Shown here piece after piece: positions 9,618 to 58,825 of a stretch of DNA of 64,000 nucleotides. Both the position numbers and the translations under genes were made by a program. The notes below the pieces were generated by a model that saw only the letters and a list, made by a program, of their open reading frames with translations, searched no databases and had not been told where the DNA came from. The stretch comes from Lentilactobacillus diolivorans DSM 14421 (GTDB lineage: Bacteria; Bacillota; Bacilli; Lactobacillales; Lactobacillaceae). Numbering within the stretch: position 1 is the first letter of the stretch; every line of letters starts with the position of its first letter. The stretch lies in the NCBI RefSeq assembly GCF_001434255.1, contig NZ_AZEY01000090.1:219792-283791 (forward strand), in the 5' to 3' direction.

Positions 9618-10355
9618 ATGACTTTAGAAGTTTCCAACCTAGTTGGTGGCTATTCGCAAGTTCCTGTTCTTAATGATGTTAGTTTTGATGTTAAAAATGG
9701 CGAGCTTGTTGGCTTAATTGGCCTGAATGGTGCTGGTAAGTCAACCACAATCAATCATATTATCGGTTTGTTAACCCCGTTTAAGGGGACCATTAAGATT
9801 AATGGGACAACACTGAATGAAGATGTTAAAGCATATAAACAACAGATTGCTTATATCCCAGAAGCACCAATTGTTTATAAAGAATTGACGTTAAAAGAAC
9901 ATTTGGAAATGACGATGCTGGCTTACAACTTGAATCAAGAAGATGCGTGGGCTCGAGCTCATCGGTTGCTCAAGAAATTTCGTTTAGACAATAAGCTTGA
10001 TTGGTTTCCAGATAATTTTTCAAAAGGGATGCGGCAAAAAGTGATGATTGTCTGCGCTTTTTTGACTAATGCAAAATTATTCATTATTGATGAACCCTTT
10101 CTAGGGCTAGATCCCTTGGCAGTTAATGATTTATTGAACTTAATTTCAGATCGAAAAAAGCAAGGGGCCAGTATTTTAATGTCGACACATGTTTTGGATA
10201 CTGCACAACGTTATTGTGACCGGTTTGTTCTGCTACATAATGGTAAAGTTCGAACCGAGGGAACGCTTGAACAATTAAGAACCCTTTTCCCCAATGCCGG
10301 CGATTCCTTAAATGATATTTATCTTTCACTAGCAAGGGAAGGCGAATCTGAATGA
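9618..10355 (+). CDS. ecsA: ABC transporter ATP-binding protein EcsA
   Basis: ABC ATPase of 245 residues. Walker A is GLNGAGKST at about 35-43, the signature is FSKGMRQK near 134-141, Walker B is LFIIDEPFLGLDP near 154-166, and the H-loop is STHVLD near 187. It overlaps ecsB by 4 bp. EcsAB in Bacillus influences secretion, regulated proteolysis by RasP and competence; the exported substrate in lactobacilli is unknown. The conserved placement next to hit supports the assignment. Confidence 0.92.
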   Translation: MTLEVSNLVGGYSQVPVLNDVSFDVKNGELVGLIGLNGAGKSTTINHIIGLLTPFKGTIKINGTTLNEDVKAYKQQIAYIPEAPIVYKELTLKEHLEMTMLAYNLNQEDAWARAHRLLKKFRLDNKLDWFPDNFSKGMRQKVMIVCAFLTNAKLFIIDEPFLGLDPLAVNDLLNLISDRKKQGASILMSTHVLDTAQRYCDRFVLLHNGKVRTEGTLEQLRTLFPNAGDSLNDIYLSLAREGESE

Positions 10356-11581
10356 AACAACTTTTCAAAAAGCGGCTGGCCAATCATTTGACTGAGATGA
10401 TGAAATATCTTCGATTAGTCTTCAATGATTATTTCGTCCTTGCACTGGTCTTTTTGATTGGTGGTCTCGGATACTATTATTCAAATGCGTTGAAGCAATT
10501 GCATTCCGGAATTTGGTGGGCGCCACTGCTCACCATTGGTGTTTTACTAATTGGGATCCAACTTGGCCGGTTTGCAACGTTAGTGCAGGATCCGGATTAC
10601 GTCTTTTTGCTCCCGCAGGAATCAGAGATGGTTTATTACTTGCGTTCCGCTTATCGGTATAGCCTTGTTCTAGCCTGCGTCACTCAGGTGATTATTTGGA
10701 TTGTTTTGATGCCGTTCGTTCAGGTGACACTTTTGGCGACAACTTCAGATTTGTTTTATCTTCTAGCAAGTATCTTGTTGCTGAAGGCCATTTGGCTTAA
10801 CGCCGATTTTGCTAGAAAGTATCGTGTAAAAAGCAGATGGGTTGCCAATAGATTCCTGTTCAGATTTTTATTACCACTAGCAATATTCACAATTTCATTT
10901 TACTTCGAATATTGGGTGGGTTCATTGCTAACATTTCTGATTATTCTTTTTAGCACTGTGAATAGTTGGCGTTGGGGAATTCGGCCATTGGATTGGCGAA
11001 CAATGATTGATGACGAGAACAACCGAATGCATACTGTTTATCAATTCTTTAATTTATTTACCGATGTGCCATCGTTGAATGGTTCTGTTAGGCGGCGCCG
11101 TTATTTGGATTGGCTGTTACGGCGGATTAGGCTAATCCCTGAAAATACGTATCTGTATTTATACGCTCATGGCATTTTACGGGATCACGAAATGGGTGGA
11201 CTATATTTCCGACTAACCGTTATTGGCACGCTTTTTTTGGTGTTTATTAAAGGCGAAATGTTGCCAATTGCTTTGTGCTTAATCTTCCTGTATCTGATTG
11301 GGTTTCAAATGATTCCATTTTATTTTCATTTTGACGACAACGCATTTGTTCATATTTATCCAGTGACGAATGATCATCAAATGAAAAATTTTCAGCGGGT
11401 GCTACTAATCATGTTATGTGCTGTGGCAACTATTTTTGCCATTGCCGTTATTGCGATTAACTATACAAATGTGGTGACGATTATTGGTGTTATCGTTGGT
11501 GAACTGCTTGAGGTTTTGGCGTTTATTTATTTGTATGTCCCACGACGAATTCAACGTGGGCAGCGAAGTCGAAATATATAG
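10352..11581 (+). CDS. ecsB: ABC transporter permease EcsB
   Basis: Polytopic membrane protein of 409 residues with roughly nine or ten hydrophobic segments grouped near the N-terminus (about 27-150), middle (170-200) and C-terminus (290-400). A large cytoplasmic stretch around 205-285 is rich in Arg (RRRRYLDWLLRRIR). It is coupled to ecsA by an ATGA overlap and forms its membrane partner. No ecsC follows. Confidence 0.9.
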   Translation: MKQLFKKRLANHLTEMMKYLRLVFNDYFVLALVFLIGGLGYYYSNALKQLHSGIWWAPLLTIGVLLIGIQLGRFATLVQDPDYVFLLPQESEMVYYLRSAYRYSLVLACVTQVIIWIVLMPFVQVTLLATTSDLFYLLASILLLKAIWLNADFARKYRVKSRWVANRFLFRFLLPLAIFTISFYFEYWVGSLLTFLIILFSTVNSWRWGIRPLDWRTMIDDENNRMHTVYQFFNLFTDVPSLNGSVRRRRYLDWLLRRIRLIPENTYLYLYAHGILRDHEMGGLYFRLTVIGTLFLVFIKGEMLPIALCLIFLYLIGFQMIPFYFHFDDNAFVHIYPVTNDHQMKNFQRVLLIMLCAVATIFAIAVIAINYTNVVTIIGVIVGELLEVLAFIYLYVPRRIQRGQRSRNI

Positions 11582-11742
11582 TACTCGGAATCATGCACGC
11601 TGGTAAATTTAAGGATGGCCAATAATTAAAGATGTTTTTATTCTAACGATGAAGGCGGCAGATCGGCTGGTTTGATTAGCCTGAATGACTAGCATTTATC
11701 TTTGTTTTTGAGTCAGATTCGAGAATTCGTGTAATTAAAAAG
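11582..11742 (+). other. Intergenic spacer before repeat copy A
   Basis: No convincing reading frame is present. A TTGAGT at 11708-11713 followed 17 bp later by GTAATT is a very weak promoter candidate for the repeat that follows. Confidence 0.3.
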
Positions 11743-11933
11743 AGAGTGGACGAAAGGCGGTTAACTTCCCGAGTGTAATCGAATTATCCAACTATTCCGG
11801 GTGGAATAGCTGGATAGTTCGGTTATGCGGCAGGAAGTTGCCTTTTGGCGCACGTTTCCACTCAGTAACAATCGTGATTACAAAAAATGGGACTGGACAA
11901 AATTACTTTTGCCTCAGTCTCCACTTTTTCCAA
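11743..11933 (+). repeat. Dispersed structured repeat, copy A
   Basis: A roughly 190-bp element found again at 58.54 kb in the same orientation with an exact 46,800-bp offset over the first arm. It holds a hairpin spanning 11744-11863 (arms start GAGTGGA and end TCCACTC; apex CTATTCC-GGGT-GGAATAG) and a second hairpin at 11890-11922 (GGGACTG...CAGTCTCC with ACAAAA/TTTTG). Several stem positions are G-T, which pair as G-U only if the plus strand is transcribed. No reading frame, transposase or target-site duplication is seen. It lies between ecsB and trmB. Confidence 0.8.
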
Positions 11934-11974: not shown

Positions 11975-12616
11975 ATGCGCATAAGAAAAAAGCCTTGGGC
12001 GGCTAAATATATTCAAGATCATGCTGATTATATTGTGACTAATCCTCAAAATTGGACTGGCAGGTGGCAGGAACGATTTACCAAAACACAATCATTGGAT
12101 GTTGAGATTGGTGCCGGAAAGGGCCAATTTATTATTCAAATGGCTAAGCAGCATCCTGAAATAAATTACATTGGGGTTGAACTTCAAGAGTCAGTGATTG
12201 CCACGGCACTTAGGCGGTTTATGACTGATCCACTGCCAAACTTACAATTCGTTCTGACAGATGGTGCCGATTTGGACGAGTTTTTTCATCCAAATGAAAT
12301 CGAAAAAATATTTCTTAATTTTTCCGATCCCTGGCCCAAAAAACGGCATGCCAAACGTCGTCTAACATCGCCGAGATTTTTGAAGACTTATCAGACAGTT
12401 TTGGCTCATGACGGTCAGATTGAATTTAAAACAGATAACCGTGGTTTATTTGAATATTCTTTAGTGACAATGAATAATTTTCCCATGCATTTTGATGAGG
12501 TATCATTAGATTTACATGAATCTCCAGAAAATGAAACCAATATTGAAACTGAATATGAGGAAAAGTTTAGTCCAAATGGCCCAATTTACAAACTTGTTGT
12601 TCACTTTAATTCATAA
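11975..12616 (+). CDS. trmB: tRNA (guanine-N7-)-methyltransferase
   Basis: SAM-dependent enzyme of 213 residues that makes m7G46 in tRNA. The SAM-binding motif VEIGAGKGQFI is at about 42-52, YIGVELQESV near 65-74 and the TrmB signature FLNFSDPWPKKRHAKRRL at about 112-129. The C-terminus has the family motif ETEYEEKF near 191-198. The start follows GTAGGAG. Its last 16 bp overlap the end of the convergent small gene on the minus strand. Confidence 0.96.
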   Translation: MRIRKKPWAAKYIQDHADYIVTNPQNWTGRWQERFTKTQSLDVEIGAGKGQFIIQMAKQHPEINYIGVELQESVIATALRRFMTDPLPNLQFVLTDGADLDEFFHPNEIEKIFLNFSDPWPKKRHAKRRLTSPRFLKTYQTVLAHDGQIEFKTDNRGLFEYSLVTMNNFPMHFDEVSLDLHESPENETNIETEYEEKFSPNGPIYKLVVHFNS

Positions 12617-17833: not shown

Positions 17834-18529
17834 ATGGATAATTATCCTAATGAAGAACGACGAGTTGCTAATAACGCTGCTGGTCTGAATGCTTTTCTTA
17901 CTAGAATGTATAGTTGGATGAGCTTGGCTGTTTTAATATCCGCAGCAACTGCATTTTTAATTAGTGGTTCTGGAATTGCGATCACAAGAGGAATGATGTG
18001 GGGATCAATGATTCTCTGGTTTGTCATTCCGTTTGTCGTATCGTTTCAAGCACTGAAAAGACCAACTCTGGCTTTTGGGGCGTTAATGCTATATGCAATT
18101 TTGAGTGGCTTTGTCTTCTCAATTATTGCTAAGGCGTACACGGGAGCCTCGATTGCCTCAGCCTTTGTTTCAGCGTCAGCGATCTTTATTACGATGACCG
18201 TTTTTGGATTAGTCACTCGAAAGAATCTGGATAAGGTTGGTCGTCAAGCAGTTGCCGCATTAATTGCGTTAATCGTTGCGATGATCATCAATTGGTTCTT
18301 ACGAAGCCCATTAATTTCCTTCGTCTTTTCAATCATTGCCGTTCTTATCTTTACGGTGTTGACTGCTTATGATACCCAAAAGATGAAGCAAATGTATAAT
18401 CAATATGCGGGAAGTAATCAAATTTCGATGACCGGTTTGGCTGTGTTTGGTGCATTGCAGTTATACCTTGATTTTGTTAACTTGTTCTTACAGTTATTAC
18501 AAATCTTTGGTAGTGGTGACAACCGTTAA
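17834..18529 (+). CDS. Bax inhibitor-1 (UPF0005) family membrane protein
   Basis: Polytopic protein of 231 residues with seven hydrophobic segments at about 30-50, 57-75, 82-103, 110-130, 140-157, 163-183 and 204-225. The family signature TAYDTQKMKQMY follows segment six. Bacterial BI-1 proteins (YetJ type) are pH-sensitive calcium leak channels in vitro; the role in lactobacilli is unknown. It is monocistronic, flanked by its own promoter and a T-rich terminator. Confidence 0.88.
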   Translation: MDNYPNEERRVANNAAGLNAFLTRMYSWMSLAVLISAATAFLISGSGIAITRGMMWGSMILWFVIPFVVSFQALKRPTLAFGALMLYAILSGFVFSIIAKAYTGASIASAFVSASAIFITMTVFGLVTRKNLDKVGRQAVAALIALIVAMIINWFLRSPLISFVFSIIAVLIFTVLTAYDTQKMKQMYNQYAGSNQISMTGLAVFGALQLYLDFVNLFLQLLQIFGSGDNR

Positions 18530-18548
18530 AATTCAATCGTTAATTTAT

Positions 18549-18591
18549 GAAGAGACTCAGACAAAAGTAATTTTGTTTTAGTCTCTTTTTT
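18549..18591 (+). terminator. Terminator after BI-1 gene, related to the dispersed repeat
   Basis: AGAGACT pairs with AGTCTCT, with ACAAAA/TTTTGT in the inner stem, then six T. The stem is close to the second hairpin of the dispersed repeat at 11.9 and 58.7 kb. Confidence 0.9.
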
Positions 18592-18756
18592 GAGGATTAA
18601 GTGATATTTATTAGAATGAATGAATTTATCAAGGCTACAAAAAGTGAACCGATATCATTAAGATGACGAATTTGAGCTGCTTATTCACTCTCTTTCCAAT
18701 TTACGGGTTGCTCGTGGTAAAATTAAATTCAGAGAATTATTTTAAAGGAGAATTTA

Positions 18757-28351: not shown

Positions 28352-28484
28352 GTTGTTAAATGAAAGCAGAAGCAACCCGCTTCTCGCCTTAGTGAACTGA
28401 TTCGCTGGGCACGATATCGAGTAAGAGCTTAATTGTTTAAGTTCTTTAATTGAGGCGGGCACAATTCTGTGCCTGTCTTTTTTC
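28352..28484 (+). promoter_or_regulatory. Leader with attenuator upstream of infC (L20-type autoregulation)
   Basis: About 130 nt of untranslated RNA ending in the terminator hairpin GGCGGGCACA-ATTCT-GTGCCTGTC with T6 (28454-28483). An alternative complement, CCCGCTTCTCGCC, occurs early in the leader and could form an antiterminator. Position and layout match the ribosomal protein L20 leader of Firmicutes, in which excess L20 causes termination. Confidence 0.8.
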
Positions 28485-28516
28485 TGCTTTTTTAAAATAT
28501 TTGGAGGTGGAGTACC

Positions 28517-43284: not shown

Positions 43285-43299
43285 TCATTAAGTAAATGC

Positions 43300-43526
43300 G
43301 TTTGAGAAAAAAGTAGTAGATAATTAACTTGGTCAGCGAATCTGTGGTTGGTGTGAACAGAGAAGGTCAATTATTCGAATTCATTTTTCGAGCTGAAATT
43401 GGGAGTTATTTATAACGAAAAATTTTCCGGTAATCACCGTTAACGATTCTAAGTGTGTCATTTCTTAAGATGGCAAATTAGGGTGGTACCGCGTTGCTTC
43501 GTCCCTTTGTGGGCGAGGCTTTTTTT
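43300..43526 (+). promoter_or_regulatory. Phenylalanine T-box leader of pheST
   Basis: The T-box motif GGGTGGTACCGCG lies at 43481-43493. The specifier is most likely TTC (Phe) at 43380-43382, followed by A and the closing stem. The terminator has GCTTCGTCCC against GGGCGAGGC with a T-run, ending at about 43526. Antitermination by uncharged tRNA-Phe is expected. Confidence 0.93.
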
Positions 43527-58464: not shown

Positions 58465-58542
58465 AATAAAAATTGTCATTATTGATAAGTTGTCGCTTTT
58501 TTGACAATTAATTGAAGTTTGCTAATTATTAGAATAAAAACA

Positions 58543-58727
58543 GAATGAGACAAAAGTCGGTTAACTTTCAGAGTGCAATTAGATTATTCAAATATGCTCC
58601 GGGTAAAATAGTGGGATGATTCGGTTGCACGGCAGAAAGTTGCCTTTGGCGCACGTCTTCACTCGGTAATAATTGTGATGACACAAAACGAGGCTGAACA
58701 AAATTACTTTTGTCTCAGCCCCTACCG
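58543..58727 (+). repeat. Dispersed structured repeat, copy B
   Basis: Second copy of the element at 11.74 kb, clearly diverged but alignable over its whole length. Hairpin arms include AACTTTC/GAAAGTT and GTGCAATT/GGTTGCAC; the apex is CTCCGGGTAAAAT. The second hairpin is GGCTGAACAAAA...TTTTGTCTCAGCC. It lies between the rhodanese-like terminator and the minus-strand small gene. Confidence 0.8.
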
Positions 58728-58825
58728 CTTAGTCAATTAGTCGACTCTTGTACTTAGTCCAATTGGATACCGGTCTAGGTTCGTTGACTAGTCCCAACTG
58801 TCCTTAGGTTACTTGTGTTAATTCA
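58728..58825. other. Spacer rich in TAGTC motifs
   Basis: No gene seen. CTTAGTCAATT at 58728 and CTTAGTCCAATT at 58753 are short direct repeats, and TTGACTAGTC contains a GACTAGTC palindrome. The region may include the end of the minus-strand transcript. Confidence 0.35.

Follow-up and report, generated by a model that had tools for sequence, protein, structure and literature searches.

An EFAR-like, probably hairpin-replacing repeat family in Lentilactobacillus diolivorans and its relatives, with ends resembling those of IS1182

Described repeats and insertion sequences of similar build

The enterococcal EFAR repeats are about 170 bp in size and reportedly delete the stem-loops that they target, keeping remnants of the stem. 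Efa-1 is an adjacent pair of stem-loops, 163 bp in size, according to the accessible part of PMC2267715, and EFAR is counted among the enterococcal MITEs in that of PMC3733652; we infer that the two names stand for the same thing. The element described here is non-coding mobile DNA some 180 bases long, with dozens of copies across the genome of L. diolivorans DSM 14421 (a 3.26 Mb draft), and it resembles EFAR/Efa-1 in its size and in its two adjacent stem-loops, which those repeats hold within about 165-170 bp. It also resembles EFAR in its insertion into stem-loops with stem remnants left behind, as seen at five empty sites of copies from a relative and in the complementarity of the flanks in its own genome. 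The likeness is one of description, and the element differs in its order-wide spread, its mainly one-strand covariation and its IS1182-like ends.

IS1272 and TnSha1 are reported to enter hairpins with partial deletion of the target and no duplication, several of their targets being confirmed terminators (accessible parts of PMC4923244 and PMC5678879). Hairpin-replacing insertion without target duplication is shared by the element, as are ends like those of the IS1182 family, which are of the GNGNCTGGG type in this bacterial family. Those two are about 1.9 kb long and carry a transposase, whereas the element is non-coding and has an interior of its own. The REP/BIME sequences associated with RAYT are, like it, palindromic extragenic repeats in high copy, but the element is larger, has another target mode and lives in a genome where no RAYT-sized Y1 transposase was found. 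RUP goes with IS630. RUP, BOX and SPRITE of Streptococcus pneumoniae are small dispersed intergenic repeats, a description that fits the element as well, and neither EFAR nor IS1182 came up in a text search of the accessible part of the MITE review concerned (PMC10969869). A search of the literature, largely that openly accessible, brought up no account of the family in lactobacilli, of its one-strand covariation or of its order-wide spread.

We hypothesize, with a probability of about three in four, that the element is a MITE of the EFAR kind, mobilised in trans through stem-loop-replacing transposition of the IS1182/IS1272 type. If true, this would bring together the repeats of enterococci, a repeat family that reaches many dozens of copies per genome in lactobacilli, and the stem-loop-replacing mechanism of IS1182/IS1272, and the mover of EFAR-like repeats would become a testable question.

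Copies A and B and the spread of the family

The window, i.e., the whole 64,000-nucleotide stretch of DNA that was analysed, holds two copies, A and B, both reported in a preliminary description and both confirmed. They are composed as follows.

11742-11922, + strand: copy A of the mobile element, refined limits, between an ecsB-like gene (10352-11581) and a trmB-like gene (11975-12616)
11742-11757, + strand: 5' terminal inverted repeat of copy A, IS1182-like, one base missing (37-copy alignment)
11742-11853, + strand: hairpin 1 of copy A, made up of an outer stem, a 5' bulge of 4 bases, a middle stem, a small internal loop and a long inner stem (fold and covariation)
11854-11888, + strand: conserved tail of copy A, from hairpin 1 to hairpin 2 (alignments)
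11889-11921, + strand: hairpin 2 of copy A, terminator-like, including the 3' terminal inverted repeat at 11906-11921 (fold and alignment)
11925-11929, + strand: T run 3' of hairpin 2 of copy A, a probable remnant of the replaced terminator (flank test and empty sites of other copies)
58541-58722, + strand: copy B of the mobile element (sequence)
58707-58722, + strand: 3' terminal inverted repeat of copy B, within its hairpin 2 (sequence and alignment)

Copy B lies downstream of a reading frame that we take to be rhodanese-like, and the names ecsB-like and trmB-like are likewise assigned by our own recognition. The covariance model R1, built from 37 copies of this genome, matches copy A at 11743-11929 (188 bits) and copy B at 58542-58730 (184 bits). 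Weak R1 matches lie on both strands at 18512-18693 (E 0.0016 and 0.0034), perhaps a decayed copy. At about 181 bases the element has room for at most 60 codons, and no listed frame of at least 80 aa overlaps either copy. A known Rfam RNA was rejected, as the Rfam search of the element gave no family at the gathering cut-off and three chance-level matches only. The ordinary Rfam matches of the window are a T-box leader (43292-43509) and an L20 leader (28358-28490).

BLASTN recovers 46 matched pieces from the genome, 40 of which are main copies, and R1 gives 108 matches, the highest number scorable, some of which may be the second strand of one palindromic copy, with at least 69 distinct places among the matches listed; two other genomes, G004 and G015, have 87 and 69 matches. 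The covariance-model search of genome and relatives that had been proposed as a check thus returned a dispersed family, present in 16 of 24 genomes of the genus and in 71 of 201 genomes and 18 of 40 genera of the bacterial family, the own genome counted in each. A second model, R2, covers hairpin 1 and the tail and was built from 48 copies of 36 genomes; at 1e-5 and with stricter filters it matches 67 of 295 genomes of the order, own genome included, in seven families (f1, f2, f3, f5, f7, f8 and f9). Fifteen of these order-wide loci (L193 in f1 and 14 from f2, f3, f5 and f8) were viewed by eye and have an identical architecture, L197 excepted, whose best fold is without the outer stem.

The family also occurs on plasmids. 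An Enterococcus faecalis plasmid carries a member (L359) matched by R2 with 50.9 bits, and one order-mate copy matches 66 plasmid records, 55 of them from Enterococcus; a second matches a single record, from Aerococcus tenax, and a third matches none of the plasmid records. The enterococcal form matches one Escherichia, one Pseudomonas and one Klebsiella record. On plasmids of Loigolactobacillus backii (L098, L099) the element stands beside bioY, with differing upstream genes.

Target hairpins and the ends of the element

The relatives G003 and G017 are close, with 95-96% identity around one shared site, and G003 was searched with the flanks of 13 G017 copies out of 14 loci prepared, complete for 12 of them and nearly so for the last. 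Five of the 13 sites are empty in G003 and hold a terminator-like hairpin there, cleanly at L153, L154, L151 and L159 and with diverged flanks at L152; simple shuffles folded as well in 3, 0, 0, 0 and 0 of 300 cases, respectively. Compared by eye, the filled sites have the element in place of the loop and of most of the stem, whose foot is retained. The same copy is found in both genomes at two sites (L131, L145), an older or hybrid element is present in G003 at L071 and L143, and the denominator of 13 also takes in L125, L133, L137 and L147. These empty sites belong to G017 copies, not to copies A or B. In L. diolivorans itself, the flanks of 35 of 37 copies (L022 and L034, whose ends were not recognised, are omitted) are complementary to each other above the level of shuffled partners, with 36 of 5000 shuffles as high, and direct repeats or a target duplication gave no signal in these flanks (564 of 2000 shuffles). 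A stand-alone hairpin 2 was found neither in the window nor at loci L001-L044 by the patterns used, one of which missed even copies A and B.

A different hairpin repeat (flank query 277-331) has over 20 matches in G003 and lies outside the element family as modelled. In the own genome, L011, L024 and L037 share the same IS110-family-like end of about 50 bases, located 2-5 bases before the 5' end of the element, accompanied in L024 by a transposase frame (PF02371, PF01548); L039 has only about the last 12 bases of this end in common with them. An IS110 element may target these hairpins.

The transposase model of IS1182 (NF033551) matches 69 of 201 genomes, 23 of them above the cut-off, and among the genomes matched are the element-bearing G013, G144, G026 and G017, the last with an internal stop, besides others; the own genome has no IS1182 transposase match to NF033551 and none to PF13751. 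When inverted repeats were sought around 26 IS1182 genes without reference to any motif, usable GNGNCTGGG-type ends were found on both sides of five of them (L211, L214, L220, L225, L235), and the end profile of the main test was made from these five loci only. On this profile the 5' ends of 70 and the 3' ends of 67 among 86 copies score at a level reached by no more than 1% of equal-sized background blocks, while 3 and 12 copies, respectively, fail at 5%, the latter including several without hairpin 2. In the own genome, 30 of 35 5' ends and 34 of 35 3' ends score at the 1% level or better, with L011 and L037, which are near contig ends, left out. An earlier profile had relied on ends located by a motif that we wrote ourselves, so that some of the further IS1182 ends may be chance; its values (35/40 and 36/40) are superseded by the motif-blind test. 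The 5' end of copy A scores weakly on this motif-based profile (0.3, equalled by about 0.2% of background windows), and its 3' end reaches 12.5, with no background window as good.

Element and IS1182 occur together when any IS1182 match is counted (37 of 69 genomes with a match vs 34 of 132 without, p 0.0002, over 201 genomes with samples taken as identical and kinship uncontrolled), whereas matches above the cut-off give no association (10 of 23 vs 61 of 178, p 0.49, kinship likewise uncontrolled). Like a MITE of IS1182, the element has IS-like terminal inverted repeats and no coding capacity; two further marks of such a MITE, a partner transposase in the same genome and an IS-derived interior, are lacking. 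As the full hairpin 1 is absent from 30 IS1182 loci, three of which have weak or partial matches, the interior is no plain internal deletion of the IS. The preliminary description had offered a non-autonomous mobile element as one option, and the copy number, the spread, the empty sites and the IS1182-like ends support it.

The link to IS1182 is drawn from the likeness of the ends and from the target mode, and movement in trans is therefore put forward as probable. Most likely, an IS1182-family transposase acting in trans inserts the element within the stem of terminator hairpins, and copies A and B would have inserted in the same mode. Upon insertion the loop and most of the stem would be lost and the stem foot would remain, and hairpin 2 together with the retained T run could serve again as a terminator. 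We propose that, because the terminator would be restored in this way, insertion harms little; the low-harm build-up of the family would then be explained by a terminator removed and a terminator-like hairpin put back. Hairpin 1 may serve for recognition or for protection, either as single-stranded DNA or as RNA.

Probable selection on the fold and competing explanations

Copy A folds on the + strand at -77.6 kcal/mol, compared with -48.1 +/- 4.5 for shuffles (z -6.6, 0/200), and since its - strand folds about as well (z -8.6), no preference for either strand is evident from this copy by itself; copy B has the long hairpin on the + strand only. The three double changes between the copies that were reported at the outset are exact in the letters: T11776-A11825 against C58576-G58627, C11768-G11834 against T58568-A58636 and, in hairpin 2, A11892-T11918 against G58693-C58719. 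Double changes affect 12 of 45 pairs in alignment A1, which comprises 37 own-genome copies, with the truncated or short forms L016, L038 and L039 left out. Alignment A4 holds 48 of 56 loci from 36 genomes, four rows being own copies; L024 (own), L058, L061, L064, L066, L068, L074 and L084 are left out as second copies, as a weak one or as simply unentered. RNAalifold predicts 39 pairs in A4, 36 of which have at least one double change with pairing kept; 93.9% of the cells are paired, against 37-42% for slid partners, and the covariation score of 0.662 compares with 0.218 for shuffled data (0/500 as high), values that favour the tested structure in that it was derived from the alignment on which it is scored. 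A4 leans towards the R1 structure because R1 picked the rows. Two further alignments, A2 and A3, had taken in antisense matches and do not enter the counts.

The + strand is the more stable in 47 of 48 A4 copies, by 9.4 kcal/mol on average, and in 13 of 14 copies from other families. At the 39 pairs of A4, G-T cells number 123 and A-C cells 26, and at the 31 pairs found in the folds of both strands 55 and 18; in A1 the pairs of the + strand fold give 300 vs 31, and the bias is weak (28 vs 21) at the 25 pairs common to both strands. Hairpin 2 has no + strand preference (+ more stable in 10 of 37). In hairpin 1, the 4-base bulge varies in its letters and keeps its length ungapped in 48 of 48 A4 copies, and the internal loop is asymmetric. 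The earlier interpretation is thus partly supported: a covarying fold is confirmed, and the one-strand fold stands as a mainly + strand one for the family and falls for copy A taken alone, both of whose strands fold about equally. In our reading, the lineage that spreads has long been selected for hairpin 1, whose fold is largely strand-specific and fits RNA and single-stranded DNA alike. The reason for this conserved, mainly one-strand fold is the interesting part, and the family, with its strong covariation, is a natural test set for transposition machinery that reads a folded single strand.

The level at which selection acts was approached with 99 copies of four genomes (one own copy left out), where numbers are small and kinship is uncontrolled. 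Changes at pairs that are private to a copy comprise 26 G-T, 19 A-C and 20 others, without a G-T bias (p 0.37), whereas shared changes comprise 18 G-T, 4 A-C and 3 others and are biased (p 0.004), the excess coming chiefly from the own genome (14 vs 3). Resident copies therefore seem able to decay, and it is in the spreading lineage that the + strand fold is retained. A bolder version of our reading, rather unlikely in our judgement, makes the element a transposon satellite, whose folded strand, be it RNA or top-strand DNA, would be kept order-wide because machinery of the IS1182 type, or a host factor, reads it when a hairpin is replaced in transposition; it would be a SINE analogue on an IS, choosing terminators as safe havens by their structure.

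The mainly one-stranded fold, the bulge of constant length and the asymmetric internal loop would also suit a spread through a single-stranded DNA or RNA intermediate of another enzyme (IS200/IS605-like, REP-type or reverse transcriptase), the strand-specific fold being its substrate. We regard this as improbable, since IS1182-like ends and a hairpin-replacing target suit a DDE element and the constant flank typical of IS200 is not seen by eye. Y1 transposase matches in the own genome number only three, with open frames of 151-153 aa, and an IS200/REP partner was rejected on the grounds that these genes are IS200-sized only.

We give a comparably small chance to the double changes having arisen, without selection, from template switching that corrects quasi-palindromes. 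Such correction seems to operate in some copies: a loop or bulge has been made into perfect pairs in 4 of the 56 own copies, by a rough count of patterns that leaves 9 unclassified, and likewise in L367 and L129, and 17 double changes are private among the 99 copies of the four genomes. Template switching makes no difference between the strands and should remove both bulge and loop, but the bulge has the same length in all 48 distant copies and G-T exceeds A-C. It may produce a part of the double changes, adding to selection without replacing it.

Strong covariation, a G-T excess on one strand and a position behind genes are also what a structured regulatory RNA acting for the adjoining host gene would show, and both a directed small RNA gene and a 3' UTR element of ecsB had been suggested for copy A. 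By mechanical gene calls, 92 copies lie between convergent genes (43), in ++ (20), -- (17) or divergent (3) contexts or beside one neighbour that is unknown (9), compared with a baseline for gaps of at least 60 bases in the window of 18 ++, 4 convergent, 1 -- and 5 divergent; IS1182 belongs to a group of ten IS families that are found in excess between convergent genes (accessible part of PMC9208149). The near equality of sense and antisense contexts at gene ends speaks against a directed small RNA gene. Around the trmB loci of the genus, searched with R1 over about 1.5 kb upstream each, the element occurs in 1 of 24 genomes, and copies are absent from the 23 other members apart from two weak inner-hairpin matches in one of them (L115, E 0.009 and 0.02); the gap before trmB was read out for 22 of the 23, the loci being anchored on trmB and the upstream gene taken as ecsB. 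Copy A is therefore a lineage-specific gain at trmB, and the 3' UTR proposal is not supported. With private changes free of G-T bias and more of the 13 G017 sites empty in G003 than occupied by the same copy, a regulatory RNA is a very unlikely explanation. For annotation, this is a warning that covariation alone does not justify labelling copies of this kind as small RNAs or as elements of a 3' UTR.

Copying between hairpins by recombination or gene conversion, with no transposase, is likewise very unlikely, as the target hairpins are unrelated and the ends are defined and IS1182-like; it has on its side the terminator of a serS-like leader (L055/L072), where an older element kept its 3' half and had its 5' half exchanged for a new, complete hairpin 1; L055 was compared directly, outside the 13-site search.

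Short forms without the inner stem are found at L038, L039, L361, L362 and L363, the first four with their junction at a GGTTA repeat, and could have come from recurrent slippage or from an amplified derivative. As such forms stand at several sites, the inner stem may be dispensable for movement.
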